From a virus, in IMG/VR virus record IMGVR_UViG_3300017917_002466, positions 124,001 to 188,000 of that record: DNA of 64,000 nucleotides; one strand, 5' to 3'. This document shows, piece after piece, positions 11,614-50,301 of this stretch. The translations under genes and the position numbers were made by a program. Position 1 is the first letter of the stretch. Each line of letters starts with the position of its first letter. Under the pieces are notes generated by a model, which was given only the letters and a program-made list of their open reading frames with translations, did not search any database and had not been told where the DNA came from.

Positions 11614-11813
11614 GCCTTATGTTTCAATGGTGAAAAGTTCTCTCTAATGTATTTGATTTTGTTTTGAATCTCATCAAAACTATTTCCACAAAAAGTTGCA
11701 CCTGTACGATTACAATTAAACGTACATAGTGAAAATTTTTCACTGTAAAACATTCCTATGAATTCTACATCTTCAAATTCATTGGCTAAATCTTTGCCCA
11801 ACTCTTCAAGCAT
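11610..11813 (-). CDS. Hypothetical phage protein
   Basis: 67 residues from the ATG at 11813 (AAGGAG site). Small alpha/beta pattern with two Cys. Two promoters (11844-11872 and 11916-11944) and a minus-strand late-type box lie upstream, so it may be made at more than one stage. Confidence 0.65.
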   Translation of the reverse strand: MLEELGKDLANEFEDVEFIGMFYSEKFSLCTFNCNRTGATFCGNSFDEIQNKIKYIRENFSPLKHKA

Positions 11814-11843
11814 CTTCAATCTCCTTCAAGGTATAGAATCTAT

Positions 11844-11872
11844 ATTATATCATCTTGCGGGCGCTTTGACAA
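11844..11872 (-). promoter_or_regulatory. Sigma70-like promoter
   Basis: TTGTCA / 17 bp / TATAAT on the minus strand, a second promoter for 11610-11813. Confidence 0.65.
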
Positions 11873-11873
11873 G

Positions 11874-11881
11874 TATTTATA
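11874..11881 (-). promoter_or_regulatory. Late-type TATAAATA box, minus strand
   Basis: TATAAATA on the minus strand upstream of 11610-11813; the only minus-strand copy I noticed. Confidence 0.45.
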
Positions 11882-11915
11882 CAAGAAGGGATTGTATTCT
11901 CTCTTCCTCACATCT

Positions 11916-11944
11916 AATATACTCACGAAATACCGTCTTGTCAA
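11916..11944 (-). promoter_or_regulatory. Sigma70-like promoter
   Basis: TTGACA / 17 bp / TATATT on the minus strand, distal promoter of 11610-11813. Confidence 0.8.
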
Positions 11945-11970
11945 GCCCTATTTTTTATTAAAGAAAGGGC

Positions 11971-11999
11971 TTGACTTTATAGCTTCTATAGCTTATATT
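11971..11999 (+). promoter_or_regulatory. Plus-strand promoter
   Basis: TTGACT / 17 bp / TATATT on the plus strand. Reads through an AGCGAACGGGGAG stem-loop and three palindromes toward the endonuclease at 12265. Confidence 0.75.
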
Positions 12000-12041
12000 A
12001 AAGGTGTGGCAAGGCCAGCGAACGGGGAGGTCGTCTTTAAG

Positions 12042-12150
12042 TTTAAGCGATTAAATAAGAGTTCTATTTAAGCGATTCAAATTCAATCGTAGGCTTTAGG
12101 TGAGGGATTACTAGGGATAGCTTCTTAACCTGTCTTCTTAAGCGATTAAA
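12042..12150. repeat. Three TTTAANCGNTTAAA palindromes
   Basis: TTTAAGCGATTAAA at 12042-12055, TTTAAGCGATTCAA at 12067-12080, TTAAGCGATTAAA at 12138-12150. All in a gene-free leader. Confidence 0.7.
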
Positions 12151-12163
12151 CGATGATTAAAAC

Positions 12164-12260
12164 TATAAATACTGTTGTAGTAGGGAGACAGAGGAGTCGA
12201 CACCTTTTCTCAACCATACTTGAGATTATCCCTACTTAATCTACTTAACCTGTATGGAGG
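12164..12260 (+). promoter_or_regulatory. Late promoter plus pseudoknot leader, copy 1
   Basis: TATAAATA at 12164-12171. Outer stem AGTAGGGA (12179-12186) with TCCCTACT (12229-12236). Inner hairpin TCTCAA, loop CCATAC (12214-12219), TTGAGA. Downstream GTATGG (12252-12257) is the exact complement of the loop and overlaps the GGAGG ribosome site of the gene at 12265. Conserved GGGAGACAG after the 5' strand. Confidence 0.85.
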
Positions 12261-12264
12261 GAAT

Positions 12265-12957
12265 ATGCAAAAACTTTCTAAAGAAGATTTCATTTCCAAG
12301 GCTAATCAAATCCACCAAAATCGTTTTGATTATTCAAAAGTTGAATACTACGATAATAAAACTAAGGTTTGTATTATTTGCAAAGAACATAAAGAGTTCT
12401 ATCAACAACCAAGCAAACATCTTCTTGGTCAAGGTTGTCCAATATGTTCAGACCAAAAATTAACATTAGATAAGTTTATTTCAAAAGCAAATCAAACTCA
12501 TAACTTCTATTACGATTATTCTGAAGTTGTTTATGTTAACTGGAAAACTAAAATTTGTGTGGTATGTCCAGCACACGGAAAGTTCTGGCAAAGACCAGAT
12601 GTTCATTCGTCTGGTCAAGGATGTCCTATATGTAAATCTTCAAAAGGCGAAAAAGAAGTTGAAAAATGTTTAACCAACAAAGGAATTACATTCATTCCAC
12701 AAAAACGATTTGAAGATTGTCGTGGTAAAGTCAAACCTTTACCTTTTGACTTTTACTTACCAGAACATAATATTTGTATTGAATACCAAGGTAAACAACA
12801 CTACCTAAAAGAAAGTAAGTTCTATTCGGAAGAACTTTTACAGAATGATAAAACAAAAGCCCAGTATTGTTTCGATAACAACATTAGGCTTATCGTGATC
12901 CCATATTGGGAAGACGTTTATAAATGTCTACGATTTTTTGGTAGCGAAAGAGGTTGA
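12265..12957 (+). CDS. EDxHD (Vsr-like) homing endonuclease
   Basis: 230 residues. Residues 7-60 and 65-121 are two copies of a DNA-binding zinc repeat (DFISKANQIHQNRFDYSKV, then C-x2-C; DUF723 type). The C-terminal 100 residues carry the restriction-like core FDFYLPEHNICIEYQGKQHY, as in free-standing phage EDxHD homing endonucleases. Start at 12265, behind GGAGG. Lies opposite to all its neighbours and is expressed from the late promoter and pseudoknot leader. All key segments look intact. Confidence 0.88.
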   Translation: MQKLSKEDFISKANQIHQNRFDYSKVEYYDNKTKVCIICKEHKEFYQQPSKHLLGQGCPICSDQKLTLDKFISKANQTHNFYYDYSEVVYVNWKTKICVVCPAHGKFWQRPDVHSSGQGCPICKSSKGEKEVEKCLTNKGITFIPQKRFEDCRGKVKPLPFDFYLPEHNICIEYQGKQHYLKESKFYSEELLQNDKTKAQYCFDNNIRLIVIPYWEDVYKCLRFFGSERG

Positions 12958-13039
12958 CTTTAAAAAAACATTAAATCCTTTCTGTAAAGAAATGAAAGGG
13001 CTCTGGTCGCTTGGCGTCCGTGGCCCCTTCCCCCAATTT

Positions 13040-13055
13040 ACCAACCCATTGACTT
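13040..13055. repeat. Direct repeat of the 13193-13208 sequence
   Basis: ACCAACCCATTGACTT here and ACCAACCCATCGACTT at 13193-13208 (15 of 16 bases). The second copy is the 3' end of the gene at 13191. The pair flanks a promoter copy and an HNH fragment. Confidence 0.65.
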
Positions 13056-13064
13056 GATACATAC

Positions 13065-13094
13065 AATATATATCAAAAAAAGTTGTTTTGTCAA
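13065..13094 (-). promoter_or_regulatory. Sigma70-like promoter
   Basis: TTGACA / 18 bp / TATATT on the minus strand, reading left into a gap with no minus-strand gene; its -35 box abuts the HNH fragment. Confidence 0.55.
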
Positions 13095-13210
13095 ATGGAA
13101 TTTGTTTATGTAAAGATTGTCATAAAAAATTTCACAGTATGTTTGGTATAAAACATACTGTAAAATCTATGATAGACGATTTTTTAAAAACTACCAACCC
13201 ATCGACTTAA
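13094..13210 (+). pseudogene. HNH endonuclease, C-terminal scar
   Basis: Plus-strand frame without a start: NGICLCKDCHKKFHSMFG, the end of an HNH domain, then a short tail to TAA at 13208-13210. Lies between the direct repeats described at 13040. Confidence 0.8.
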
Positions 13211-13457
13211 CCATCTCACGACATTTGATTTGAGCAGGAGTATATTCGAGGTCTTTCTTCCATTCACCAGTCGTCTTGTCTCTATAGGCGATAATATCGC
13301 TGGTATACACACTTCCGCACTCCGTCTCAAAGCCATAGACCCGACAGATGGTCGTGGAACCACGGGCTGAACCAAGAACGTCGGCTTCCCAGCCGTTGCG
13401 CTGCATCACCCGAAAGCCCTTCTTGTTCTTCGCATCCCACAGTTCGGCAGTCTTCAT
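13191..13457 (-). CDS. Hypothetical phage protein
   Basis: 88 residues from the ATG at 13457. Beta-rich (TTICRVYGFETECGSVYTSD), helical C-terminus REMVKSMGW. Single gene with promoter 13503-13531. No family recognised. Confidence 0.7.
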   Translation of the reverse strand: MKTAELWDAKNKKGFRVMQRNGWEADVLGSARGSTTICRVYGFETECGSVYTSDIIAYRDKTTGEWKKDLEYTPAQIKCREMVKSMGW

Positions 13458-24659: not shown

Positions 24660-25343
24660 ATGATTCTTTCTAAAACTGTTCAAGTTAAAATTAGCCGAAG
24701 AAATATTAAACATTATTTGTCTCTTGGTTATGTTATTCCAAAACATACTGATATTTATAATCGCCTTTGTAATCAAATAGGGATTCTAATTGAAGTATCT
24801 ATTGGACATTTACTCAAAGGAAGTAAAGTAAAAGTTCTTTGTAAATGTGACGAATGTGGAAAAGAAAATTTAACTTATTACAACGAATCTCTTAAATTCA
24901 AATATATTTGTAAAAATTGTGCTGCTAACCAACCTAAAAGATTAGAAAAGTTAAAAAATGCTATGACTGGTAAAAAACATTCCGAAGAAACTAAAAAGAA
25001 AATGAGTGAACATAATTGGGCAAAGAATCATACTGGAAAACTACATCCTTGTTACAATTCTAATCTTACTTTTGAAGACCGATATCTAGGTAGAAATAGA
25101 AATGTACAGCCAGAAAATTATCAATGGAAAAAGAAAGTTAAAGAAAGAGATAATCATATTTGCCAAAAATGTGGCTCAAAAGAAAATCTATGCGTTCATC
25201 ATCTTAACAACTATAAATCATTTGAAAACGAAAGGTATGACATTAAAAATGGAATTACCTTATGTGTTGGATGTCATAAGGAATTCCATAAAAGATATGG
25301 TCGTTTAACTACCAAAGAGCAAATAAAGGATTTTATAGGGTAA
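24660..25343 (+). CDS. HNH homing endonuclease with NUMOD-type region
   Basis: 227 residues. A zinc pair near 63-90 (CKCDECGKEN, then CKNC), a NUMOD3-like helix (TGKKHSEETKKKMSEHN) near 102-118, and a C-terminal HNH domain (CQKCGSKENLCVHHLNNY, then GITLCVGCHKEFHKRYGRL). Appears intact. Unrelated in its nuclease fold to the enzyme at 12265, yet it has the same leader. On the strand opposite to its neighbours. Confidence 0.88.
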   Translation: MILSKTVQVKISRRNIKHYLSLGYVIPKHTDIYNRLCNQIGILIEVSIGHLLKGSKVKVLCKCDECGKENLTYYNESLKFKYICKNCAANQPKRLEKLKNAMTGKKHSEETKKKMSEHNWAKNHTGKLHPCYNSNLTFEDRYLGRNRNVQPENYQWKKKVKERDNHICQKCGSKENLCVHHLNNYKSFENERYDIKNGITLCVGCHKEFHKRYGRLTTKEQIKDFIG

Positions 25344-25632: not shown

Positions 25633-26481
25633 CTAACGGGCATTTCGCACAACAGTGTCCTGCGCGGGGCTTCTTAGCGCATGGATGCGCTCTTCTGCTA
25701 TCCGGCAGTATTTCTCTTCCTTCTCAATTCCGATGTAATTCCGGCCAGTATTAATACAAGCGATTGCAGTAGTACCGGAACCAATGAACGGGTCTAAAAT
25801 TGTATCACCACAAAAAGAATAATAAGAAATCGCTTTTGTAGCCAACTCTAATGGGAACGGAGCTGGATGTCTATTACGCTCCGGGTTGATTTTCCATACA
25901 TTTGTTCTTTCGTAACCATCCAGCACTTTGGATTTTTTTATTATCTCTTGTGAATGAGAACGAATTGATTTGTCCAGTAAGCACCCCGGCTTTGAAAACA
26001 CCAGTATATATTCTGTAATATTAAATGTTTTGTACGCAACTGGTCTACGATGGTGCGAAAATTTGATTGCTCGACTTGATGCACCATCTGGCTTTACCCA
26101 TATAATGTCGTCTAAGAATGTCCATTTTTTTGAAAGCATAGAACAAACATCAAACGGTATTGGTATTCGTTTTGATTCTGTGCTTCTTTTTTTCCTCGCT
26201 TCAATAACGCATGACAAGTTCAGCACAAATATTCCCGCCGGTTTTATCTTTGTATGTGCCGTATTAAAAACTGTGTCTAAAAAAGATAGATACGAGGCAT
26301 ACGATTCGTATTTTGAATAACACCTTGCATTATAATACGGCGGTGATGTTAAAATCATATCCACGCTCTCGTCTGGTATAGTCTGCATGACTTCGAGGCA
26401 GTCCCCGCATGTTACGGTATTTGTCTTCGGCGCAGGACGCGCCGTGTCTTGCCCCGCGCCTATAATTTCAGAATTTGCCAT
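25633..26481 (-). CDS. Site-specific DNA methyltransferase, beta-class order (array B distal cassette)
   Basis: 282 residues from the ATG at 26481. Motif IV TSPPYY at about 44-49 comes first. The AdoMet-binding motif DPFIGSGTTAIA comes near residue 235, followed by NYIGIEKEEKYCRIAEERI. The order and the TSPPY motif fit an N4-cytosine or N6-adenine methyltransferase. The ribosome site AGG is part of the attC core GTTAGGTGC right before the ATG. No cognate restriction enzyme beside it. Probably modifies phage or host DNA against restriction. Confidence 0.85.
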   Translation of the reverse strand: MANSEIIGAGQDTARPAPKTNTVTCGDCLEVMQTIPDESVDMILTSPPYYNARCYSKYESYASYLSFLDTVFNTAHTKIKPAGIFVLNLSCVIEARKKRSTESKRIPIPFDVCSMLSKKWTFLDDIIWVKPDGASSRAIKFSHHRRPVAYKTFNITEYILVFSKPGCLLDKSIRSHSQEIIKKSKVLDGYERTNVWKINPERNRHPAPFPLELATKAISYYSFCGDTILDPFIGSGTTAIACINTGRNYIGIEKEEKYCRIAEERIHALRSPAQDTVVRNAR

Positions 26482-26485
26482 ATTG

Positions 26486-26618
26486 CACCTAACGGTTCGG
26501 CAAACGTAAGCCGTGCCTACGAATGCGTGCGACAAGGATATTTTACGTGAACGCACTGACGGTCGTAATTCTCCACACAGCACGTTGTTTGGCATGGCTT
26601 GCTTTGCCTGTTGTTTGT
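26486..26618 (-). repeat. attC-like site B25
   Basis: CACCTAACGGTTCGGCAAAC and GCTTTGCCTGTTGTTTG are the arms; TAAGCCGTGCC pairs with GGCATGGCTTG. Minus-strand core GTTAGGT fits the integron consensus GTTRRRY. Confidence 0.85.
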
Positions 26619-26732
26619 CTGTTGAGCGAGTACAGCGGATTTCAGAGTTTGCCAATGCAACCGCCCCTTAGTTTGCAAGTGCTCCGATAACTCATCAAAC
26701 CATTGAACCGCATCAGATATTTCGTTACTCAT
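26517..26732 (-). CDS. Hypothetical cassette protein (array B)
   Basis: 71 residues from the ATG at 26732 (GGAG site). MSNEISDAVQWFDELSEHLQ is helical; the C-terminal 35 residues, Cys and basic rich, are encoded inside attC-like site B25. Confidence 0.6.
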   Translation of the reverse strand: MSNEISDAVQWFDELSEHLQTKGRLHWQTLKSAVLAQQTNNRQSKPCQTTCCVENYDRQCVHVKYPCRTHS

Positions 26733-26769
26733 TGGCAAACTCCTATCAGTAAATTTAAGAGCGAAATTG

Positions 26770-26910
26770 CAAACAACGTATCACGCACCCGCCCGTTGTT
26801 TGTCCGTTATCCACTTACAGCACCGAGGGCACCAAGCATCTATACCGCTATATGGATACACTGGTGCCTTACCACATGTAGGACAAATTACGGGCTGCGT
26901 GTGTTGTGGG
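26770..26910 (-). repeat. attC-like site B24
   Basis: AACAACGTATCACGCACCCG pairs with CGGGCTGCGTGTGTTG; the zinc-ribbon end of the B24 gene lies in the loop. Confidence 0.8.
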
Positions 26911-27095
26911 ACCGTGGGCAATTCTACCGCAATCTCTGCGCGGCGATCTTTTACCCATTGCTCCATTTCGATTTGATCATTACTCAATACCACCAACGCA
27001 TCATTAGGGATTTTCCCACCATGACGAAAAGGTGCCGTGACCTTGTTGACTCGGCAAAGGAACATCTCAAGCCTGTGTATGTCTTCGACGCGCAT
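26781..27095 (-). CDS. Zinc-ribbon cassette protein (array B)
   Basis: 104 residues from the ATG at 27095 (AAGGA site). Helical first half, then CPTCGKAPVYPYSGIDAWCP and CCKW, a four-Cys zinc ribbon whose codons lie in the attC hairpin loop. Confidence 0.65.
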   Translation of the reverse strand: MRVEDIHRLEMFLCRVNKVTAPFRHGGKIPNDALVVLSNDQIEMEQWVKDRRAEIAVELPTVPQHTQPVICPTCGKAPVYPYSGIDAWCPRCCKWITDKQRAGA

Positions 27096-27122
27096 AATAA
27101 TTCCTTTTGAATTGCCCATGTA

Positions 27123-27264
27123 CCACAACGTTTAGCGCACGGGTGATAGTTTGCCCGTGGCTCGACAAAGCCCACACTTTACCATACCAGTACCAGGATC
27201 GTCGGATAAATACTCGCCACTACCCATACACGTAGGGCAAATTTTACCCTGCGCTTGTTGGTTG
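27123..27264 (-). repeat. attC-like site B23
   Basis: CCACAACGTTTAGCGCACGG and CCCTGCGCTTGTTGGTTG; GATAGTTTGCCC pairs with GGGCAAATTTT. Confidence 0.85.
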
Positions 27265-27371
27265 ATGCGGAGGGAAGCCACCTCAGCCTCCAGCGTGGCG
27301 ATAGCCCGTTCAAGAGACAAAAACCGATTCATAACAAATGATGGATCAGAGAAATCAATTTCGTTTACCAC
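27132..27371 (-). CDS. DnaJ-type zinc-finger cassette protein (array B)
   Basis: 79 residues, GTG start at 27371 behind GGAGG. Coiled N-terminal part (LERAIATLEAEVASLR), then CPTCMGSGEY...CGLCRATGK, the C-x-x-C-x-G-x-G pattern of DnaJ zinc fingers. The cassette at 27722-27958 has a similar pair. Confidence 0.7.
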   Translation of the reverse strand: MVNEIDFSDPSFVMNRFLSLERAIATLEAEVASLRINQQAQGKICPTCMGSGEYLSDDPGTGMVKCGLCRATGKLSPVR

Positions 27372-27407
27372 GCCACACCTCCATGTATAAAAAGCTGACC
27401 GAAGTTT

Positions 27408-27490
27408 CAACCAACGTCTGCCCTATGCTGACGTTTCTGTTTCAGAAATGTGGGAGTCATCGACCGAACAGCATTGGGCTGTTGTTTGCT
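27408..27490 (-). repeat. attC-like site B22
   Basis: CAACCAACGTCTGCCCTATG and CAGCATTGGGCTGTTGTTTG are the arms; TTTCTGTTTCAGAAA closes the loop. Confidence 0.75.
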
Positions 27491-27668
27491 GTGCGCTCGC
27501 TTCCACAAAACCTGCGGTTTGCGGAGTATCGAGAGGGCACCAATTTGGTATTTCAAAAGTAACATTGATAACAGACCTACCGCCATATAGAGGATGGTTG
27601 CAAATAAATCCACTCTGACTGTAGCACAAGGGACATTCGTTACAGCAACTAATTTTGATTACACGCAT
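27423..27668 (-). CDS. Cys-rich cassette protein (array B)
   Basis: 81 residues from the ATG at 27668: CCNECPLCYSQSGFICNHP gives five Cys and one His in 20 residues, a clear metal site. The tail is attC-encoded. Confidence 0.65.
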   Translation of the reverse strand: MRVIKISCCNECPLCYSQSGFICNHPLYGGRSVINVTFEIPNWCPLDTPQTAGFVEASAQQTTAQCCSVDDSHISETETSA

Positions 27669-27705
27669 GAGCAAACCGCCTATCTATTCTCAAAAGAGCG
27701 CATTG

Positions 27706-27846
27706 CAACCAACGGTATCGGCTACGCCTGAAGTTTGCCCGTACCGTGACAACGCCAACAGTCCTTACCATTGTTATAATTATTGGTAGAACCAGACCCA
27801 GCAGGGAAACAGTCAGGGCAAATTTTAGGCTGGCCGTGTTGGTGGA
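27706..27846 (-). repeat. attC-like site B21
   Basis: AACCAACGGTATCGGCTACG and GGCTGGCCGTGTTGGTGG; GAAGTTTGCCCG pairs with AGGGCAAATTTT. Confidence 0.8.
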
Positions 27847-27958
27847 TGTGACGCTTGCTTCCACCAATTTTGCGGCGGGTCTTAAACTGATCCTCGCCAT
27901 AGTGGCCGGTTATGTAATTATCAAGTTCCTGACTCATGCGCTTATCGTTGCCGAACAT
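27722..27958 (-). CDS. DnaJ-type zinc-finger cassette protein (array B)
   Basis: 78 residues, ATG at 27958 behind GGAGG. KICPDCFPAGSG and CWRCHGTGKL form a DnaJ-like zinc finger encoded within the attC hairpin. Related to 27132-27371. Confidence 0.65.
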   Translation of the reverse strand: MFGNDKRMSQELDNYITGHYGEDQFKTRRKIGGSKRHIHQHGQPKICPDCFPAGSGSTNNYNNGKDCWRCHGTGKLQA

Positions 27959-27999
27959 ATTTCCTCCCGCCGCTTACCAGTTAAAAGCAAGCGGCATTT

Positions 28000-28144
28000 A
28001 CACCAAGTTTGGCGCATTCGCACGAAGTTACGCCGTCTTATCGCACCAACAAGTAGAACACTGCTTGTGAGCAACATCAAACGGGCATATATCCAAGCCC
28101 CATTTACAAGAAGGCGTAATTTTGTGCTGCGCCTGTTGGTGGAT
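28000..28144 (-). repeat. attC-like site B20
   Basis: ACCAAGTTTGGCGCATTCGC and GCTGCGCCTGTTGGTGG; GAAGTTACGCC pairs with GGCGTAATTTT. The left core is degenerate (CCAAG for CCAAC). Confidence 0.75.
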
Positions 28145-28267
28145 GTGCCGCGTTTCTTCCGCAATGTCAGGCTGGCAATCTTCCAGCATGATAGGGCAAG
28201 AACCGGCGTGATCCACTATTTCATCTTGAGTGCCAAAGAAGCCGCAATATTTACATTTGCCAGCCAT
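28028..28267 (-). CDS. Zinc-finger cassette protein (array B)
   Basis: 79 residues from the ATG at 28267: MAGKCKYCGFFGTQDEIVDH, then AGSCP gives a C-x2-C...H...C finger near the start. A second Cys group (CKWGLDICP, CSTCWC) is attC-encoded. Confidence 0.65.
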   Translation of the reverse strand: MAGKCKYCGFFGTQDEIVDHAGSCPIMLEDCQPDIAEETRHIHQQAQHKITPSCKWGLDICPFDVAHKQCSTCWCDKTA

Positions 28268-28298
28268 ATAATAAACCTTTCTTGAAACGCGGCATTTA

Positions 28299-28443
28299 CA
28301 CCAACGTTTGCTCAACCGCACGATAGTTGTCGCAATCGATCTACCACTGCTGTAACATAAGACACATAAACCTTGTGCTCAACAAACTCTTTGTAAAGAC
28401 TATCGGCTATTGCGGCAATTTCGTGCTTGAGCTGTTGTACGTC
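28299..28443 (-). repeat. attC-like site B19
   Basis: CACCAACGTTTGCTCAACCG and TGCTTGAGCTGTTGTAC; CACGATAGTTGTCGCAA pairs with TTGCGGCAATTTCGTG. Confidence 0.8.
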
Positions 28444-28551
28444 TGTGGAAGGAGCGGCTTCCTCAGCTTTAAGTGCTCGCATCACGGCAGGGCAACGGTC
28501 TACGTTTATACCCATACCGCTACACGGCAAAATGAATGACTTGTTATCCAC
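28312..28551 (-). CDS. Hypothetical cassette protein (array B)
   Basis: 79 residues, GTG start at 28551 behind GGAGG. APSTDVQQLKHEIAAIADSL resembles APSTDVQQPQVDITA of the cassette at 29752-29973, because both read the same attC arm. Helical; function unknown. Confidence 0.6.
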   Translation of the reverse strand: MDNKSFILPCSGMGINVDRCPAVMRALKAEEAAPSTDVQQLKHEIAAIADSLYKEFVEHKVYVSYVTAVVDRLRQLSCG

Positions 28552-28590
28552 GCGAGCACCTCCTAAATCGTAAAGAGCGACTGGAATTGC

Positions 28591-28724
28591 GTACAACGGT
28601 TCAGCAACGTGCGCCGTGCCTACAGGGCTTCACGGCAATATGGACACCACACAAACCCAGTATGGGCCTTGCCAAGACGAAGCCACTCGTGAAATTGGCA
28701 TGGCGTACTTGCCGTGTTGTGCGA
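28591..28724 (-). repeat. attC-like site B18
   Basis: GTACAACGGTTCAGCAACGT and TACTTGCCGTGTTGTGC; GCGCCGTGCC pairs with GGCATGGCG. Nearly identical over 100 bases to site B15 at 29438-29571. Confidence 0.85.
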
Positions 28725-28832
28725 TGAATTTGTTGACTCCCTAATGTAAGCGCGAATTGCTTCTAACGCGGTAAAATCTTTTGAATATTTACACATTCTC
28801 TCTACTTGCAAAACGGCTTCGTGTATATCCAT
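28620..28832 (-). CDS. Cassette protein, 3' half duplicated at 29468 (array B)
   Basis: 70 residues from the ATG at 28832 (GGAGG site). Helical N-terminal half (HEAVLQVERMCKYSKDF). The C-terminal FHEWLRLGKAHTGFVWCPYC is shared with 29468-29701 and ends in a Cys pair. Start region like 31415-31651. Confidence 0.65.
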   Translation of the reverse strand: MDIHEAVLQVERMCKYSKDFTALEAIRAYIRESTNSSHNTASTPCQFHEWLRLGKAHTGFVWCPYCREAL

Positions 28833-28863
28833 TCGCGCCTCCAATATGGTTCAACAAACTTTT

Positions 28864-28953
28864 GCACAACGGTTCGGCAAACGGGCGAAGTTGGTTTACC
28901 TCGACACGGAGGGCTGTTCTACGCCAATTTCGCCCTTTGCCTGTTGTGCGATG
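28864..28953 (-). repeat. attC-like site B17
   Basis: GCACAACGGTTCGGCAAACG and CCCTTTGCCTGTTGTGC; GGGCGAAGTTGG pairs with CCAATTTCGCCC. Confidence 0.9.
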
Positions 28954-29063
28954 TTGTTTTTAATTACCTTAATTTCAGCGGCGATTTCTCGTAACCGAAG
29001 ATTATTAGCTACAACAAAGCACCACAACGATAAATAAGCCAGAAAGACAAAAAACCATTTCAT
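28896..29063 (-). CDS. Membrane-anchored cassette protein (array B)
   Basis: 55 residues: MKWFFVFLAYLSLWCFVVAN is a membrane anchor or signal, then LRLREIAAEIKVIKNNIAQQ is a helix. GGCGG site before the ATG at 29063. Tail attC-encoded. Confidence 0.6.
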   Translation of the reverse strand: MKWFFVFLAYLSLWCFVVANNLRLREIAAEIKVIKNNIAQQAKGEIGVEQPSVSR

Positions 29064-29100
29064 AATCGCCGCCTATAAATCAAAGATTAAAAACCATTTC

Positions 29101-29235
29101 GCCTAACGTCTACCGCATCGCACGAAGTTGCCGCGCCCAAACCCACAACCTACGATAAACCCCTGACGGTAGATTATTGTTATTGTCTACAAAGGCTTCC
29201 ATTTCTGCGGCAATTTTGTGCTGCGGTTGTTGCAC
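29101..29235 (-). repeat. attC-like site B16
   Basis: GCCTAACGTCTACCGCATCG and GTGCTGCGGTTGTTGCAC; CACGAAGTTGCCGCG pairs with TGCGGCAATTTTGTG. GCCTAAC is the canonical integron core RYYYAAC. Confidence 0.9.
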
Positions 29236-29406
29236 GGGGCGCTTCGCCCGAACCGTTCGGCCCGTTTCCAAATTATCCAGCGCGGTGCGGACTGCTATTG
29301 CCCCGCTGTGGCCGAGAGAATAATTGACAACGGCAACCGCTTTGCCGTTACGACATACCTCAAACGCATAGCCAGTATCTTCTATCTCATATTTGGCACC
29401 GCGCAT
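29110..29406 (-). CDS. Hypothetical cassette protein (array B)
   Basis: 98 residues. The first 50 (MRGAKYEIEDTGYAFEVCRN, SGAIAVRTALDNLE) form a small alpha/beta unit; the rest, basic then helical, is attC-encoded. Function unknown. Confidence 0.65.
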   Translation of the reverse strand: MRGAKYEIEDTGYAFEVCRNGKAVAVVNYSLGHSGAIAVRTALDNLETGRTVRAKRPVQQPQHKIAAEMEAFVDNNNNLPSGVYRRLWVWARQLRAMR

Positions 29407-29437
29407 ATTAACATCCTATCTTTAAGGGCCGAATGGC

Positions 29438-29571
29438 GTGCAACGTTCTCGGCAATGTACGCCGTGCCTACAGGGCTTCACGGCAATATGGACACCACAC
29501 AAACCCAGTATGGTCCTTGCCAAGACGAAGCCACTCGTGATATTGGCATGGCGTACTTGCCGTGTTAGGCG
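29438..29571 (-). repeat. attC-like site B15
   Basis: GTGCAACGTTCTCGGCAATG and TACTTGCCGTGTTAGGCG; GTACGCCGTGCC pairs with GGCATGGCGTAC. The plus-strand core GTTAGGC matches the integron consensus exactly. Confidence 0.9.
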
Positions 29572-29701
29572 ATGTAGAAAGCGACTCCTTAACGTCCTCA
29601 AATTTGACAAATTCACCGTCGTCGCACTCCTCCATCCGAGCATGCGTGCCATACATATCGCTCGTGACCTTATAATCGTACCGTGTCAAATTTACATCCA
29701 T
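29468..29701 (-). CDS. Cassette protein, 3' half duplicated at 28620 (array B)
   Basis: 77 residues from the ATG at 29701. The N-terminal half NLTRYDYKV...GEFVKFEDVKESLS resembles 32217-32474 (NLTRYNLEW...AWVKFDDIKELLN) and 31696-31962. The C-terminal half is nearly identical to 28620-28832, so this cassette is a hybrid. Confidence 0.65.
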   Translation of the reverse strand: MDVNLTRYDYKVTSDMYGTHARMEECDDGEFVKFEDVKESLSTSPNTASTPCQYHEWLRLGKDHTGFVWCPYCREAL

Positions 29702-29724
29702 ATATCGCTCTCGCTTTCTATTTC

Positions 29725-29863
29725 GCATAACGTCTGCCACACGGTTGATCGTTACGGCCTACCTTGCCAATCACCAGATTCACGTTCAGGAACATCATAT
29801 CGCCGTTTAGATAAATCTCCATAATATGAATAGGCCGTAATGTCAACCTGTGGCTGTTGTACG
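29725..29863 (-). repeat. attC-like site B14
   Basis: GCATAACGTCTGCCACACGG and CCTGTGGCTGTTGTACG; TTGATCGTTACGGCCTA pairs with TAGGCCGTAATGTCAA. Confidence 0.85.
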
Positions 29864-29973
29864 TCTGTGGAAGGAGCGGATTCTTTAGTTAATGCGGTGC
29901 AGCCATGACCGACACCCTGAACACCTTGCCACTCCCACCGAGCTTGTATATAGTGACGACAATCTTTGAACAT
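29752..29973 (-). CDS. Hypothetical cassette protein (array B)
   Basis: 73 residues from the ATG at 29973 (GGCGG site). FKDCRHYIQARWEWQGVQGV near the start; the second half is attC-encoded. Function unknown. Confidence 0.6.
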   Translation of the reverse strand: MFKDCRHYIQARWEWQGVQGVGHGCTALTKESAPSTDVQQPQVDITAYSYYGDLSKRRYDVPERESGDWQGRP

Positions 29974-30012
29974 TTGCACCGCCTTATAGATCGTTTAGAG
30001 CGACTGGAATAG

Positions 30013-30083
30013 CGTACAACGTGTGCCAAAGTATGAAGGTGTGAAACAATTTGCGAAGCGAACATACTTTGGCTGTTGTGTGT
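30013..30083 (-). repeat. attC-like site B13, compact
   Basis: GTACAACGTGTGCCAAAGTA and ATACTTTGGCTGTTGTGTG; an 11-bp perfect stem GCCAAAGTATG/CATACTTTGGC. No coding sequence inside. Closely similar to site B6 at 31989-32064. Confidence 0.9.
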
Positions 30084-30238
30084 TGGTTTTCGCTCCACAA
30101 TATTAAAAAGCAATTTGGCGATTGTAACGAGGCCAACTCAACCACCCTCGTATCCCATCGGGCGTCCCCTTTGGTGGTCTACATAGCCGTGGACGGCTTA
30201 GCCAAATTGCCTATAAATTCAAAGAGCGAAAACTTACA
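30081..30238. ncRNA. Non-coding structured cassette NB2
   Basis: A cassette-sized interval between two attC-like sites without a reading frame of use. Outer helix GTTTTCGCT (30086-30094) with AGCGAAAAC (30225-30233). Second helix GCAATTTGGC (30110-30119) with GCCAAATTGC (30201-30210). Inner hairpins ACCACC/GGTGGT and AGCCG-TGGA-CGGCT. The cassette at 32059-32205 has the same outer helix and layout but a different, again complementary, second helix. Strand of the RNA not known. Confidence 0.6.
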
Positions 30239-30389
30239 CACAACGTATACGCTATTGTGAAGTAACTATGTTATTTAGGCGCTCCTCTAACTGTGAAATA
30301 AGCGACAATGCCTGTGGATACGACTCCATTGCTGACGGAACTGAATCCCGTAGAAACTTGAGCGCCGCCACAATAGCGTTGTTGTGCGA
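30236..30389 (-). repeat. attC-like site B12
   Basis: ACACAACGTATACGCTATTG pairs with CAATAGCGTTGTTGTG; most of the B12 gene's second half lies in the loop. Confidence 0.85.
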
Positions 30390-30503
30390 AGGTTTTAACG
30401 CCTCCTCACAAAACATTTTTATGCGACCCCACGCCAGTTGTTCAGACGAAGACCCTTTTGCATTAACAAGTGCGCTAACAGATGATAGTTCATTTTCAAG
30501 CAT
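30252..30503 (-). CDS. Cassette protein, related to 7351-7605 (array B)
   Basis: 83 residues from the ATG at 30503 (GGAG site). LAWGRIKMFCEEALKPSHN matches the array A cassette at 7351-7605. All-helical; function unknown. Confidence 0.7.
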   Translation of the reverse strand: MLENELSSVSALVNAKGSSSEQLAWGRIKMFCEEALKPSHNNAIVAALKFLRDSVPSAMESYPQALSLISQLEERLNNIVTSQ

Positions 30504-30535
30504 AAAAACTCCTAAATAAAAAGCGTTAAAACTTT

Positions 30536-30734
30536 TGCACAACGGGATCAGGCATTGCCCGACAGTTTGCGCGGTGCTTCACAAGCGATACAAACGCTTC
30601 ACAAAGCGCGAAGTTGCCGCGCCCATTTACTTAACTGCTCTGCACTTGGTACGCCACCGATATTTGCTATGCGCACACCATCCTCAAGCTCAGTGGCAAT
30701 TTGGGCGATAGCCGCGCTTTGTGTGTTGGTTGAT
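30536..30734 (-). repeat. attC-like site B11, long
   Basis: The left side starts GCACAACGGGATCAGGCATT; the pairing arms are CACAAAGCGCGAAGTTGCC and GGCAATTTGGGCG...CCGCGCTTTGTGTG. Extra sequence on the left side makes it about 200 nt. Confidence 0.65.
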
Positions 30735-30895
30735 GTGGAAGGAATGCCCACCTTATTTTTCTTTCGGCGGGTAATCTTTCTCCACCACGAATGAACAACG
30801 GAACAGATAATAGCAACCAATCCTATTGCCAACGCTACGCCAAGGAACACCAGCCCAAACACATCATGAAACGTCCATACGAAAATAGAACCCAT
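30599..30895 (-). CDS. Membrane cassette protein (array B)
   Basis: 98 residues. Residues 10-36 form a membrane helix (FGLVFLGVALAIGLVAIICS), then a basic stretch (WWRKITRRKKNK) that would stay inside, and a soluble helical tail encoded in the attC hairpin. Confidence 0.7.
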   Translation of the reverse strand: MGSIFVWTFHDVFGLVFLGVALAIGLVAIICSVVHSWWRKITRRKKNKVGIPSTSTNTQSAAIAQIATELEDGVRIANIGGVPSAEQLSKWARQLRAL

Positions 30896-30945
30896 TTTTT
30901 TCTCCTTACCCGCCGAACTATTAATTCAAAAGCGGGATTTATTTT

Positions 30946-31024
30946 GCACAACGGTCAGCGCACAGCCGATGCGGTACGCTTACCATTTTTGCTACCCCGT
31001 TTCGGCTTGCGCTTGTTGTGTGCT
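30946..31024 (-). repeat. attC-like site B10
   Basis: GCACAACGGTCAGCGCACAG and GGCTTGCGCTTGTTGTGTG; near-identical left arm to A4. Confidence 0.85.
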
Positions 31025-31131
31025 GTTCGGCGCGACTCTAATCGCTCCCAGGCGGCCAGCTCCGCATCACCACGGGCCTCCGCCGCACCCATCACAGCAT
31101 CAAAATCATCAGGACCATAATCGTTTTTCAT
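30955..31131 (-). CDS. Basic-tailed cassette microprotein (array B)
   Basis: 58 residues from the ATG at 31131: acidic helical first half (MKNDYGPDDFDAVMGAAEAR), strongly basic second half (NKRKPKRGSKNGKRTASAVR) encoded by the attC arm and closely like the tail of 6456-6761. Confidence 0.6.
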   Translation of the reverse strand: MKNDYGPDDFDAVMGAAEARGDAELAAWERLESRRTAHNKRKPKRGSKNGKRTASAVR

Positions 31132-31170
31132 TTGGCCGCCTTTACAATAACGCTCTCACGCCGAATGGCA

Positions 31171-31230
31171 TCACAACGTTCACCGCACGCCGGATGCGGT
31201 ACTCCGTTTACGGCTGCGGGTGTTGTGCGA
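31171..31230 (-). repeat. attC-like site B9
   Basis: TCACAACGTTCACCGCACGC and GGCTGCGGGTGTTGTGCG; about 60 nt. Confidence 0.85.
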
Positions 31231-31374
31231 AGTGCGGCCCGCTTCCGCAAGTATTGGCGCGACTTCGCTACGGTGCGCCCACTGACCTTCCTTGTCAAAC
31301 ACAAACCTTGCAATTACTTTTCCACAGCAAATCTCAGTTTTCAATGAATACCACTGCAGTTTTTTTCGCGCCAT
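31180..31374 (-). CDS. Hypothetical cassette protein (array B)
   Basis: 64 residues from the ATG at 31374 (GGAGG site): MARKKLQWYSLKTEICCGKV, a small beta unit with a Cys pair. Basic attC-encoded tail. Confidence 0.6.
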   Translation of the reverse strand: MARKKLQWYSLKTEICCGKVIARFVFDKEGQWAHRSEVAPILAEAGRTSHNTRSRKRSTASGVR

Positions 31375-31400
31375 TATAACCTCCAAAAGGGCCGCATTTT

Positions 31401-31536
31401 GCACAACGTCTGCGCTACTGGTGCTGTGCGCATACTAAGCAGGCATGTTTTTTACACTTTCGACTAGTAATTACACCACAGTCGTAACCAGCTCCGATGT
31501 GCGCTTCGCATGGCACCATAGCGCTGTTGTGCGATG
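31401..31536 (-). repeat. attC-like site B8
   Basis: GCACAACGTCTGCGCTACTG and ATAGCGCTGTTGTGCG; the Cys-rich end of the B8 gene is in the loop. Confidence 0.85.
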
Positions 31537-31651
31537 AATTTGTTGACTCCGCCAGTGCTGCGCGAATGGTTTCCAATGCACATTTACAATCTGGACACTG
31601 GTGTTGATCCACGACTATTTGAAAATGAGCCAAGGCTTTCTTAATTTCCAT
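31415..31651 (-). CDS. Cys-rich cassette protein (array B)
   Basis: 78 residues from the ATG at 31651 (GGAGG site; same start region as 28620-28832). CPDCKCALETIRAALAES near the middle and CKKHACLVCAQH at the end suggest metal binding. Confidence 0.65.
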   Translation of the reverse strand: MEIKKALAHFQIVVDQHQCPDCKCALETIRAALAESTNSSHNSAMVPCEAHIGAGYDCGVITSRKCKKHACLVCAQHQ

Positions 31652-31682
31652 TCGCGCCTCCAATATGGTTCAGCAAATTTTT

Positions 31683-31848
31683 CGCACAACGTATGCTAAA
31701 CGGCTGATGCCTTGCGCTGGATAAAATAGTCGTGAACATCTGGATACCACACACATTTACGACATTTATATAAATCCTCGTAATCGCTACCATAGTACGT
31801 TTCACATTCCTTACAGCGCAAGGTTTCAGCCTTTAGCGGTTGGTTGCC
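31683..31848 (-). repeat. attC-like site B7
   Basis: CGCACAACGTATGCTAAACG and CTTTAGCGGTTGGTTG; GGCTGATGCCTTGCGCTG pairs with CAGCGCAAGGTTTCAGCC. Confidence 0.9.
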
Positions 31849-31962
31849 TGTTTGTGAAAGCTCCTTAGTGTCGGCAAATTTTAAATATACTCCGTCACCA
31901 CCTTGATGTATGTCGCAATCACAATCGCAACTATTAAACACAAATGTTCTGAAATTTGCCAT
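31696..31962 (-). CDS. Cys-rich cassette protein (array B)
   Basis: 88 residues. The N-terminal half (MANFRTFVF, VYLKFADTKELSQ) is related to 32217-32474. LRCKECETYYG...CRKCVWYPD adds a two-site Cys ribbon; its last part is like that of 5925-6170 in array A. Confidence 0.65.
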   Translation of the reverse strand: MANFRTFVFNSCDCDCDIHQGGDGVYLKFADTKELSQTGNQPLKAETLRCKECETYYGSDYEDLYKCRKCVWYPDVHDYFIQRKASAV

Positions 31963-31988
31963 ATAATATCGCTCCTTTCACAAATTGC

Positions 31989-32064
31989 AACCAACGGTTG
32001 CCAAAGTATGAAGTTTACGTTTCGTAAATTTGCGAAGCGAACATACTTTGGCTGTTGTGTGTTG
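31989..32064 (-). repeat. attC-like site B6, compact
   Basis: CCAACGGTTGCCAAAGTATG and CATACTTTGGCTGTTGTGTG, with GTTTACGTTTCGTAAAT in the loop. Similar to B13. Confidence 0.9.
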
Positions 32065-32205
32065 GTTTTCGCTTCACAATAATGTAAGGCGCGGGGCTGC
32101 ATAGGCTGAGTAGTGACCACCGCAGCATATATCTCCACCGAAAGTACGGTGAACCCTCAATTGTCACCGCGCCATATAAATTCCAAAGAGCGAAAACTTT
32201 CACAC
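32059..32205. ncRNA. Non-coding structured cassette NB1
   Basis: Same plan as 30081-30238. Outer helix GTTTTCGCT (32065-32073) with AGCGAAAAC (32189-32197). Second helix GGCGCGG (32088-32094) with CCGCGCC (32167-32173), covarying with GCAATTTGGC/GCCAAATTGC of NB2. Inner hairpin CACCG-AAAGTA-CGGTG (32136-32151). The only minus-strand ATG after the attC core is followed by a stop two codons later. Confidence 0.6.
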
Positions 32206-32344
32206 AACGGTTCGCACTACTGCTGTTCGTGCCAATCGGTTCGTTTGCCAGTAAACCTACTGCACGCATGGCACGTGGGGCTGACACAACCACCTATGTT
32301 ACGTTTGCAAGATTGGCATGACAGCATAGCGCTGTTGTGCGATG
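32201..32344 (-). repeat. attC-like site B5
   Basis: CACACAACGGTTCGCACTAC and AGCATAGCGCTGTTGTGCG are the arms. Confidence 0.8.
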
Positions 32345-32474
32345 AATTTAGAAGCTCCTTAATGTCGTCAAATTTAACCCAAGCCCCCTCATCGGATGCA
32401 ACCATTTGATGAAAATTATCCATAGTTTTAGTACGGTTAAACCACTCTAAATTATAACGGGTTAAATTTGCCAT
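32217..32474 (-). CDS. Cys-rich cassette protein (array B)
   Basis: 85 residues: MANLTRYNLEWFNRTKTMDN, then AWVKFDDIKELL (family core shared with 29468 and 31696), then attC-encoded CQSCKRNIGGC...CHAC. GGAG site before the ATG. Confidence 0.65.
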   Translation of the reverse strand: MANLTRYNLEWFNRTKTMDNFHQMVASDEGAWVKFDDIKELLNSSHNSAMLSCQSCKRNIGGCVSPTCHACSRFTGKRTDWHEQQ

Positions 32475-32500
32475 ATAATATCGCTCCTTTCACAAATTGC

Positions 32501-32628
32501 AACCAACGTTTACGCAACGGGTGAAGTCGCCACAACTTTTAGATTATGACAATACCCTTGCTTTAATGTACAATGATCCGATAAACACTTTAAACTACAC
32601 TCGATTTCACCCTTGCGTTGTTGGTTGT
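32501..32628 (-). repeat. attC-like site B4
   Basis: AACCAACGTTTACGCAACGG and CTTGCGTTGTTGGTTG; GGGTGAAG pairs with TTTCACCC. Confidence 0.85.
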
Positions 32629-32749
32629 CTGTAAAATTTTCTACCTTAGATGCAAGAGCGGCACACCATACGAGATGGGTATACTGCTCCTTATCTAACG
32701 TAGATTTACAACCAATACTATCAAACCATTCTCTACAAGTGCCGCTCAT
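32510..32749 (-). CDS. Hypothetical cassette protein (array B)
   Basis: 79 residues from the ATG at 32749 (GGAG site): MSGTCREWFDSIGCKSTLDK. Several Cys in the attC-encoded part (CSLKCLSDHCTLKQGYC). Confidence 0.6.
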   Translation of the reverse strand: MSGTCREWFDSIGCKSTLDKEQYTHLVWCAALASKVENFTDNQQRKGEIECSLKCLSDHCTLKQGYCHNLKVVATSPVA

Positions 32750-32775
32750 ATAAACTCCAAAGAAAATTTTATTGC

Positions 32776-32850
32776 AACCAACGTTTGACAAATGGTGAAG
32801 TCGTGTACTCACGATTTAGGCTTTTCGTTACCATTTGTTTGTTGTAAGAT
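32776..32850 (-). repeat. attC-like site B3
   Basis: AACCAACGTTTGACAAATGG and CCATTTGTTTGTTGTAAG are the arms; about 75 nt, outside the coding sequence. Confidence 0.85.
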
Positions 32851-32868
32851 GTTTATGCCACTTCCTTA

Positions 32869-33165
32869 TTATCCGTTGGCGCATCTTTGTTTTTTGATAT
32901 AGTCTAAAAGTGTAACCTGTTCTTTTTCTGGTAACTGTTCAATCACTTTTTTATTGAAAAAATATTCATCCGTAAAACCACCAACAAAATCTAACCATTT
33001 TCCTGAAATCTTTGGTAATGGTAACTCGGTGCCCCGATAAGATGCAGACATAAATATCTCTGCTGGTACGCCGTTTAATTTCCGGTAAAGTGTTCCCCCA
33101 CCACTTTTCTGATGTTCCTCTGGATACGGTGGGTTCCAAACGCCTGTGAATTTTAGTTTTTGCAT
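32869..33165 (-). CDS. Hypothetical cassette protein (array B)
   Basis: 98 residues: MQKLKFTGVWNPPYPEEHQK, then AEIFMSASYRGTELPLPKI, ending in a helical basic tail. Unusually, its stop lies before the attC-like site. Compact single-domain look; no family recognised. Confidence 0.65.
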   Translation of the reverse strand: MQKLKFTGVWNPPYPEEHQKSGGGTLYRKLNGVPAEIFMSASYRGTELPLPKISGKWLDFVGGFTDEYFFNKKVIEQLPEKEQVTLLDYIKKQRCANG

Positions 33166-33210
33166 TTTTTCTCCTGCGCCAACATCTGAATATCAGAGTG
33201 GCATAAATTT

Positions 33211-33353
33211 CTTACAACGTTCACCGCACAGCCGATGAATTGCGCTGCCAGTTACAAGAAAGATTTTTTACACATACATCACCAAACCCTGCTTGATAAC
33301 TACACATTCCACTATATGCACAAAGCAATTTTTCGGCTTGCGGTTGTTGTGGG
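33211..33353 (-). repeat. attC-like site B2
   Basis: CTTACAACGTTCACCGCACA and GGCTTGCGGTTGTTGTGG are the arms; GCCGATGAAT pairs with ATTTTTCGGC. Confidence 0.85.
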
Positions 33354-33445
33354 ATGTGGAGCGCAGGTTCCTTAGTGTCCTGCGCGGCACGCTTCGCCCA
33401 AAAATCAATCCATTCATCACGAGTAATAGCTGGTTTAGATGGCAT
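33221..33445 (-). CDS. Hypothetical cassette protein (array B)
   Basis: 74 residues: MPSKPAITRDEWIDFWAKRA is helical and AAQDTKEPAL follows. Cys-rich attC-encoded end (CAYSGMCSY...CVKNLSCNW). Confidence 0.6.
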   Translation of the reverse strand: MPSKPAITRDEWIDFWAKRAAQDTKEPALHIPQQPQAEKLLCAYSGMCSYQAGFGDVCVKNLSCNWQRNSSAVR

Positions 33446-33496
33446 AATGTGACTTTCTATGAGCCGCGCCTATCATATAGACCTGCGCGGAATTTA

Positions 33497-33564
33497 CCAC
33501 AACGTCTGCGCAACTGCGCGTAGTTGGGCCTTGACAATTACGACGCTTGCGCTGTTGGTGGATG
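33497..33564 (-). repeat. attC-like site B1
   Basis: CCACAACGTCTGCGCAACTG and GCTTGCGCTGTTGGTGG are the arms; GCGCGTAGTTGG pairs with CAATTACGACGC. Confidence 0.85.
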
Positions 33565-33795
33565 TGCCTGCCGACTCCGCTTGCTCTGCGGGCGAACCGG
33601 CGTCAACAACAGCGCGAGGAAATGATCGGCGGCGCGATTGCCTATAGTGTGCCGTTTGGCCGATGAATCACGGCTACCCTCCCAACGAGCACAGTCGTAA
33701 TACGCCATGGCGATGTTGGCCTGATAGGCACGGTACAGCCCCTTGTCGCGCCGTAACGCCCTTGTGAATACCTTGAACGCCTCTTGAAACTCCAC
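33538..33795 (-). CDS. Cassette protein, paralogue of 6456-6761 (array B cassette 1)
   Basis: 85 residues: FQEAFKVFTRALRRDKGLYR and NIAMAYYDCARWEGSRDSSA match 6456-6761. First cassette behind the attI-like site. The ATG at 33795 has GGAGG upstream. Function unknown. Confidence 0.7.
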   Translation of the reverse strand: MEFQEAFKVFTRALRRDKGLYRAYQANIAMAYYDCARWEGSRDSSAKRHTIGNRAADHFLALLLTPVRPQSKRSRQAHPPTAQAS

Positions 33796-33851
33796 AGGCG
33801 CCTCCTTATTGTTCGCCCGCCTACAATCGCGTTCTCGGCAGGCATTTACAC

Positions 33852-33891
33852 CAACTAGTTAAATGATGTCATTCCCTTGTCTAACTCTTTG
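33852..33891 (-). other. attI-like site, array B
   Basis: 40 bases identical to 7641-7680. Here they overlap the last 12 codons of the gene at 33859 (QRVRQGNDII stop), while at array A only this fragment of the gene remains. The minus strand ends CTAGTTGGTG at the join to the first cassette. Confidence 0.65.
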
Positions 33892-48477: not shown

Positions 48478-48599
48478 GTGTTACCTTCTTTATCTCTTTC
48501 AACACAATAGCATAAATAAAGACCATAAAAAAGTACCAAACCAATACCACCAACTATTACAATAACAAGAGAAGCTATTAACCATTGTGGCAATATCAT
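48474..48599 (-). CDS. Membrane microprotein
   Basis: 41 residues: IASLVIVIVGGIGLVLFYGL membrane helix, charged tail. ATGA-type overlap with the next gene. Confidence 0.65.
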   Translation of the reverse strand: MILPQWLIASLVIVIVGGIGLVLFYGLYLCYCVERDKEGNT

Positions 48600-49579: not shown

Positions 49580-49767
49580 TTGGCTTCCTTAAATATTATG
49601 CAACCACAATACTTACATCCACAAGGATACATTTCTGCATAAGTATCAAAGTGTCGGTAATAAGGATGGCCGCAAGTACAGACTCTATCATCCCCGTAGT
49701 TAGGATTGTAATGTCTATCAGTTAATACTCTCTTTGTAATGATATATGGCTTCTCAGGCTTTTTCAT
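49576..49767 (-). CDS. Zinc-binding microprotein
   Basis: 63 residues: VCTCGHPYYRH...YPCGCKYCGCIIF, six Cys and two His in 30 residues. Overlaps both neighbours. Confidence 0.65.
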   Translation of the reverse strand: MKKPEKPYIITKRVLTDRHYNPNYGDDRVCTCGHPYYRHFDTYAEMYPCGCKYCGCIIFKEAK

Positions 49768-49945: not shown

Positions 49946-49946
49946 A

Positions 49947-50300: not shown

Positions 50301-50301
50301 A

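Follow-up and report, generated by a model that had tools for sequence, protein, structure and literature searches.

Can a row of small genes and hairpins in the genome of a phage, with no integrase beside it, be an integron cassette array? The question is raised by array B, which runs on the minus strand from 33855 to 25633 of the window, that is, the whole stretch of 64,000 nucleotides under analysis, corresponding to positions 124001-188000 of the 253,664-bp IMG/VR virus record IMGVR_UViG_3300017917_002466. The record derives from an uncultivated phage that, according to its matches (portal, tail sheath, baseplate wedge, DnaB-like helicase and DNA polymerase), is a T4-like myovirus, and the roughly 30% identity of its portal protein to that of cultured T4-like phages makes it a distant T4 relative. 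Judged from its sequence, array B is very probably a phage-carried and phage-exchanged cassette array of the integron type. It is functionally integron-like, yet it is no complete integron, and its sites depart from classical attC sites in two defining features. The best label for it is a non-canonical, integron-like cassette system that circulates among phages and whose recombinase would usually be provided in trans, and as such it appears to be a previously undescribed subtype of integron-like system.

A first-pass annotation had described an array at 25633-33891 of 26 cassettes separated by 25 hairpins of 60-200 nt. We found this composition on the minus strand, with 26 cassettes delimited by 25 hairpin sites of 62-199 nt and a leading core at 33855 (Table 1). 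All sites lie on the minus (gene) strand and the cassettes are uniformly oriented, each being one gene plus one site, as in a cluster of attC sites lacking an integron integrase (CALIN). The GC fraction of the array is 0.46 versus 0.335 for the phage. The attI-distal cassette, already recognized as a DNA methyltransferase by the annotation, indeed encodes an N6_N4_Mtase (PF01555, 5.2e-43); its open reading frame (ORF) begins 3 nt past the core GTTAGGTGC and has no hairpin behind it, and most of the other 25 cassette ORFs continue through R" into the hairpin. Methyltransferases excepted, none of six cassette proteins tested matched a Pfam family above cut-off and none of five tested matched a PHROG. 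At the head of the array, in an attI-like position, a lone core without hairpin (GTTGGTGT) matches the R" of the first cassette.

Sites were scored with a scanner that combines a position-specific model with a stem score and was trained on array B, so that the site set is biased to array-B-like sites. First-order Markov shuffles of the record gave 0.3 matches per strand at a score of at least 34, and shuffled array B sequence gave none under the same model. The only other strong site cluster in the whole record is array A (5622-7487), with six good sites and a doubtful one. Array A shares the site type and the minus strand with array B, has a GC fraction of 0.45 and lies about 18 kb away. Array B had no match in Rfam, and its DNA had none among GenBank phages or PLSDB plasmids; likewise, no relatives of the phage were found in IMG/VR through its portal and a flanking protein. 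The pattern CACAACA..CGCAAGCCGAAA was discarded as a relative finder, its sole match being an unrelated contig without an array.

In integrons, the R" at the end of a cassette complements the R' half that starts the same cassette, the two meeting in the circular form, and the R' adjoining an R" within the array belongs to the next cassette. The same rule governs the phage arrays. Over 119 consecutive sites, the match between R" and its cassette's own start covered 4.08 of 5 positions, compared to 2.59 for the neighbouring R' and 2.56 after shuffling (z = 18), and perfect matches numbered 53 versus 2. Array B alone, paired by hand, scored 102/125 versus 66.8 +/- 5.0. Moreover, two sister phage contigs, G137 (IMGVR_UViG_3300031707_000057) and G138 (IMGVR_UViG_3300031999_000173), are about 99% identical over 24 kb, and G138 has one additional 766-bp segment that is exactly one cassette, gained by the one or lost by the other, the comparison being one of two metagenome assemblies. 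Where G137 reads CACCATGCTATAACGTTGGACGAAATT, G138 reads CACCATGCTATAACGTTGTATGC, then an ORF and CACACAAC-hairpin-GGCAAACGTTGGACGAAATT, and the two join inside the shared AACGTTG, at AACG|TTG. The ORF of this cassette encodes a DNA methyltransferase (phrog_757, E = 3.5e-67). As in classical attC sites, the crossover falls at G|TT in R' and the cassette end fits its own start. Because arrays of this kind occur in many unrelated phages and these sister phages differ by exactly one cassette, phages appear to exchange genes via an integron-like system; a search for further relatives returned only this pair.

The architecture of the sites was analysed on 142 sites from 13 of 15 phage records. Their geometry is nearly constant. 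Read in the direction of the genes, NNNNNAAC is followed by a single spacer base, usually A, and by an L stem of 6 bp; then come a further stem, a variable loop, L', 4-5 unpaired bases and GTTNNNN. The asymmetry of the spacers (1 vs 4-5 nt), exposed once the scanner's assumption of near-symmetric spacers was relaxed, differs from the approximately 3-4 nt on both sides in a small control set of chromosomal integrons. The L stem covaries, its 61 distinct 5' hexamers forming 5.31 Watson-Crick pairs out of 6 compared to 2.65 out of 6 with the arms shuffled. When eight array B sites were folded as single-stranded DNA, the plus (non-coding) strand had z-scores between -3.2 and -4.9. The non-coding strand gave the better fold in 105 of 129 sites (p ~3e-13) and was favoured by wobble pairs (37 to 7); the reverse strand bias (16 to 68) was seen in the N-modules that separate the hairpins. 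The strand bias and the wobbles, together with the opposite bias of the N-modules, indicate that, as in integrons, the target of selection is the non-coding strand in its folded form. Paired R and L boxes, an imperfect hairpin and a recombinogenic non-coding strand are thus common to these sites and classical attC. The annotation had named arms that do not fold on the same strand, and an identical cassette order in all related phages, as evidence that would speak against an integron array; the arms do fold on one strand and the sister phages differ in cassette content. The cassettes are real mobile units and their sites are selected for one-strand folding.

The site type is not restricted to this phage. 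The hairpin module CTAAAGGCNGAAATTGCC matched 25 IMG/VR stretches, yielding about 14 distinct contigs with the site type (two of them the same virus) and arrays of up to 20 sites, and a second hairpin module added three more contigs, including G137 and G138. In total, about 16 other IMG/VR phage contigs, mostly unrelated, carry it. Several are evidently from phages, with a terminase large subunit (phrog_2) encoded in G000, G002, G006, G009, G012 and G013. At the DNA level the array contigs are essentially unrelated except for G002/G012 (69% identity), G137/G138 and G003/G011, the latter being one virus (99.98% identical over 11.9 kb). No single protein occurs in every array phage, and G002 and G012 have no array positions in common. 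The arrays keep a GC fraction of 0.41-0.475 across phages of 0.317-0.503, and this constancy suggests that the cassettes come from a shared pool and not from the genome of each phage. In G011, a tandem repeat with 21-bp steps (about 11670-12445) ends the region shared with G003.

Besides whole cassettes, parts of cassettes are rearranged. In a comparison of 110 cassettes, N-modules were related in 27 pairs and hairpins in 40, both in a single pair. An N-module is unlinked from its upstream as well as its downstream hairpin. Identity profiles rise from background to 1.0 at AAC and drop just past GTT, and hairpins up to 96% identical stand between unrelated flanks, mostly with differing cores. 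Since most ORFs run past R" into the hairpin, this reassortment creates new combinations of N- and C-terminal protein parts; a single stem can be read in different frames, e.g. CGCAAGCCG in sites B16 and B24. Varied forms of the first ~40 nt of the methyltransferase cassette of array B (GTTAGGTGCAATATGGCAAATTCTGAAATTATAGGCGCGG, window 26493) also begin cassettes of three other phages (G005 734, G008 26836 and G012 24074), with different sequence thereafter. The reassortment of hairpins and N-modules implies that whole-cassette R' exchange alone is insufficient. In the canonical attI x attC reaction, a single strand exchange takes place and the second one is abortive (PMC8946536). In 18 related hairpin pairs, identity in the 4-5 nt spacer was 0.64 versus a background of 0.63, and 0.81 in L', which is compatible with a swap of hairpin tips; since the commonest short module retains a GGAC spacer in most copies, this test is no more than suggestive.

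From these observations we propose the following mechanism. Each cassette consists of a small N-module that carries an ORF and is enclosed by matched inverted cores (GTTNNNN ... NNNNAAC), with an attC-like hairpin behind it. The hairpin, formed by the non-coding strand, would be bound by a tyrosine recombinase that would cut the R' core at AACG|TTG, where entire cassettes would be excised, presumably as circles, and inserted. This enzyme would probably act in trans, coming from the host or a co-infecting element, with the host as the presumed usual supplier. In addition, the AAC and GTT cores are where hairpins reassort between N-modules, most likely through a second strand exchange, which, as a conjecture, might swap the tips of two folded sites. 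Tentatively, the arrays could even form a separate, phage-dedicated system, in which a non-IntI tyrosine recombinase, by a two-strand hairpin exchange that swaps tips, recombines N-terminal modules with hairpin-encoded C-terminal ones precisely inside ORFs. If so, the arrays would be a generator of new small proteins as well as a gene pool common to unrelated phages. What these findings add is a distinct site family that forms long arrays in numerous unrelated phages, a pool of cassettes composed independently of the phage, and a clean natural gain or loss of a cassette between sister phages; phages would thereby own and vector a cassette pool that includes methyltransferases. The core-precise reassortment of ORF modules and hairpins provides a testable case for how genes acquire attC sites.

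No integrase was in view in the first-pass annotation, and we found no PF00589 tyrosine recombinase, and thus no adjacent intI, in the 254-kb record, which may be incomplete. The record has no serine recombinase or Y1 transposase either, and a serine recombinase was rejected as the engine on account of its absence. Among 18 array-bearing records PF00589 was present in two, G013, with a 373-aa phage integrase about 2 kb beyond the array, and G004, with a gene for a recombinase of 268 aa (amino acids) immediately upstream of the array on the same strand. A few bases past the stop codon of the latter lies a core, GTTGTGTG, that matches the first R" (CACACAAC). The G004 protein scored 130 bits with XerA_Arch and 125.5 bits with the integron integrase model (TIGR02249, cut-off 265), both below cut-off, and the PDB entry that matches it best is the XerC-like 4a8e. 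Like XerA/XerC-like recombinases and IntI, it has all catalytic boxes (R, K, HxxR, H, Y). Between these boxes it is about 50 residues shorter than IntI4 (2a3v), in the region of the IntI-specific patch, and so lacks both the above-cut-off full-length match and the insertion by which an IntI integrase is recognized. The G004 protein is the best candidate for a dedicated enzyme, though as a single case it is no proof. Between its gene and the first hairpin, after the GTTGTGTG core, a long inverted repeat, AGAAAACTTTTCGAGGGG ... CCCCTCGAAAAGTTTT (L044 1975-2185), is possibly an attI-like or regulatory site. The phage- or host-encoded tyrosine recombinase that the annotation held responsible for the array is still something we infer, given that none is found in this record and the sole good candidate lies in one relative.

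Several observations weigh against an integron-type array. R' conforms to GTTRRRY in only 10 of 142 sites and R" to RYYYAAC likewise in 10, GTT/AAC being the only invariant part of the cores. A conserved one-base bulge lies on the 3' (L'/R') arm, typically after L position 6 (3'-arm gap in 102 sites versus 5'-arm gap in 8), rather than as extrahelical bases on the L"/R" arm as in classical attC; in Alteromonadales integron loci, a small control in which the scanner found few true sites, the bulge lay 7 to 1 the opposite way. Tyrosine recombinases are missing from 16 of the 18 array-bearing records, many of which are fragments. A search of 84,980 species genomes of bacteria and archaea gave four exact matches to the first hairpin module, none within an array, so no host array was found, although a host group whose sequenced members are free of the module could exist; among 50,697 GenBank phage records there was no convincing match. 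Finally, the hairpins are independent of the N-modules on either side, for which simple R' x R' exchange gives no account. The four bacterial matches to the hairpin pattern were set aside as chance, with no array at any of them. Such a chance encounter also led to L106 and L109 in a metagenome-assembled genome of the planctomycete Candidatus Scalindua rubra (G017), with four full-length integron integrases above cut-off.

The layout of a chromosomal integron array, as the annotation had read it, thus holds for the core rule, the covariation, the strand bias and the single-cassette difference, and does not hold for the consensus, the arm of the bulge and the separate reassortment of hairpins and N-modules. 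The consensus cores it quoted (GTTAGGC at 29564, GCCTAAC at 29101 and CCTAAC at 26488) are present, but with so few GTTRRRY sites these perfect cores are exceptions. In common with sedentary chromosomal integrons, the arrays have cassettes of a gene plus a hairpin in a single orientation, R" complementary to its own start, folding of the non-coding strand and a crossover in the GTT core of R'. Unlike them, they have no intI and no proven attI, carry the bulge on the other arm and reassort modules at two junctions.

The foremost alternative is that array B is an ordinary CALIN, its cassettes captured from a chromosomal integron of the host, whose classical IntI would still move them. Integrons are known as devices with which bacteria capture genes, and phages are reported to carry them only occasionally, mostly as short fragments; for CALIN phages such as Tetrasphaera phage TJE1, Pseudoalteromonas phage PH101 and Polaribacter phage P12002L host-integron capture was proposed (PMC9892861, Qi et al. 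2023). Their virulent-phage CALINs likewise combine attC-type hairpin cassettes, among which methyltransferase cassettes, with the lack of an integrase, and IntI1 recombines phage-borne attC sites (PMC9892861). The core rule and the non-coding-strand folding also match integrons, and the GC content of the array is unlike that of the phage. Conversely, the arrays described here reach 20-25 sites and occur in many unrelated phages, their R' is seldom GTTRRRY, and their hairpins are occupied by ORFs and reassort. IntI contacts the extrahelical bases T12"/G20", on the arm opposite to the bulge here (PMC3053210), and none of ~85,000 species genomes has the common hairpin module in an array. Under the array-B model, the TJE1 record gave two matches, opposite in strand to its genes and hence of the other site polarity. 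On balance we regard an ordinary CALIN as rather doubtful.

Homologous recombination in a hyperplastic region, without a site-specific enzyme, is highly improbable. It would liken the arrays to the T4-type 'mobile regulatory cassettes', early-promoter stem-loops between small shuffled ORFs in T4-like phages, and array B does consist of small ORFs with intervening stem-loops in a T4-like phage. To our knowledge, neither an attC-like architecture nor matched cassette cores were ever described for them. The shuffling of T4-type stem-loop cassettes is known (cited in PMC4177764, among others), but here the identity steps sit at the AAC/GTT cores instead of being scattered, which already contradicts this explanation. 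Moreover, the two ends of a cassette match and the cores flanking a hairpin do not, the same arrays occur in non-T4 phages, and the G137/G138 difference is joined within 7 shared bases.

We give equally little credence to the hairpins being non-autonomous elements, similar to the IS200/IS605 insertion sequences or to repetitive extragenic palindromes, which a Y1 (HUH) transposase would mobilize in single-stranded form. This would account for hairpins moving independently of both flanks, and IS200/IS605-type Y1 genes are indeed present in G009 (49312-49770), G010 (55852-57269) and G003 (11818-13310), the G009 copy lying inside the array span between two sub-arrays. However, in G010 and G003 a TnpB-like gene adjoins the Y1 gene, as in an ordinary IS605 element, Y1 is missing from 12 of 15 array records including the one studied here, and the matched cassette ends and the gain or loss of whole cassettes at the GTT core would be left unexplained. 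Although intergenic hairpins are common among small same-strand phage genes, immobile chance palindromes or transcription terminators are refuted by the near-zero null, the core rule, the stem covariation, the precise cassette gain or loss and the ORFs running through the hairpins.

Table 1. Coordinates in the window of the methyltransferase gene, sites, leading core and cassette ORFs of array B, and of the sites of array A.
Feature	Position	Strand	Evidence
Distal cassette ORF, N6_N4_Mtase DNA methyltransferase, 282 aa	25633..26481	-	Pfam PF01555 5.2e-43, phrog_67 4e-64
Site B1	26486..26621	-	model score 41.5
Site B2	26770..26909	-	score 42.8; 128 nt between cores
Site B3	27123..27267	-	pairing and model
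Site B4	27408..27491	-	pairing and model
Site B5	27706..27848	-	pairing and model
Site B6, R' core CTT in place of GTT	28001..28145	-	pairing and model
Site B7	28299..28445	-	pairing and model
Site B8, hairpin 94% identical to B11, flanks unrelated	28590..28726	-	pairing and model
Site B9	28864..28953	-	pairing and model; single-stranded fold z -4.85, plus strand
Site B10	29100..29237	-	pairing and model
Site B11	29437..29574	-	pairing and model
Site B12	29724..29867	-	pairing and model; z -4.55, plus strand
Site B13, hairpin akin to B20	30013..30086	-	pairing and model; z -4.13
Site B14	30237..30392	-	pairing and model
Site B15, longest (199 nt), weakest core match	30537..30735	-	pairing and model
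Site B16	30946..31023	-	pairing and model; z -4.00
Site B17	31171..31232	-	pairing and model; z -3.32
Site B18	31401..31536	-	pairing and model; z -3.66
Site B19	31684..31848	-	pairing and model
Site B20	31988..32065	-	pairing and model
Site B21	32201..32344	-	pairing and model
Site B22	32500..32629	-	pairing and model
Site B23, hairpin 86% identical to one of phage G010	32775..32851	-	pairing and model; z -3.16
Site B24	33212..33356	-	pairing and model
Site B25	33497..33564	-	pairing and model; z -4.04
Leading core GTTGGTGT, gene-upstream end of array B	33848..33855	-	matches R" of first cassette
Remaining 25 cassette ORFs (called lengths 37-104 aa; most have ribosome sites)	26517..33708	-	ORF calls
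Cassette ORF examples (1)	33221-33445, 32869-33165, 32510-32749, 32217-32474, 31696-31962, 31415-31651	-	
Cassette ORF examples (2)	31180-31374, 30955-31131, 30599-30895, 30252-30503, 29468-29701, 29110-29406	-	
Cassette ORF examples (3)	28620-28832, 28028-28267, 27722-27958, 27423-27668, 26781-27095, 26517-26732	-	
Array A sites	5622-5719, 5916-6051, 6447-6523, 6806-6942, 7087-7190, 7341-7487	-	scores 35.7-49.4
Array A doubtful site	6111-6235	-	score 32.5

Immediately left of array B, the window encodes an HNH endonuclease with a NUMOD3 motif that resembles homing endonucleases (24660-25343, plus strand). Elsewhere in the window (48596-57489, minus strand) lies a group of metabolic and RNA genes, encoding an ATP-grasp R2K protein, a Thg1 tRNA-His guanylyltransferase, a nucleotidyltransferase, an SPFH/Band 7 protein and a nicotinate phosphoribosyltransferase.

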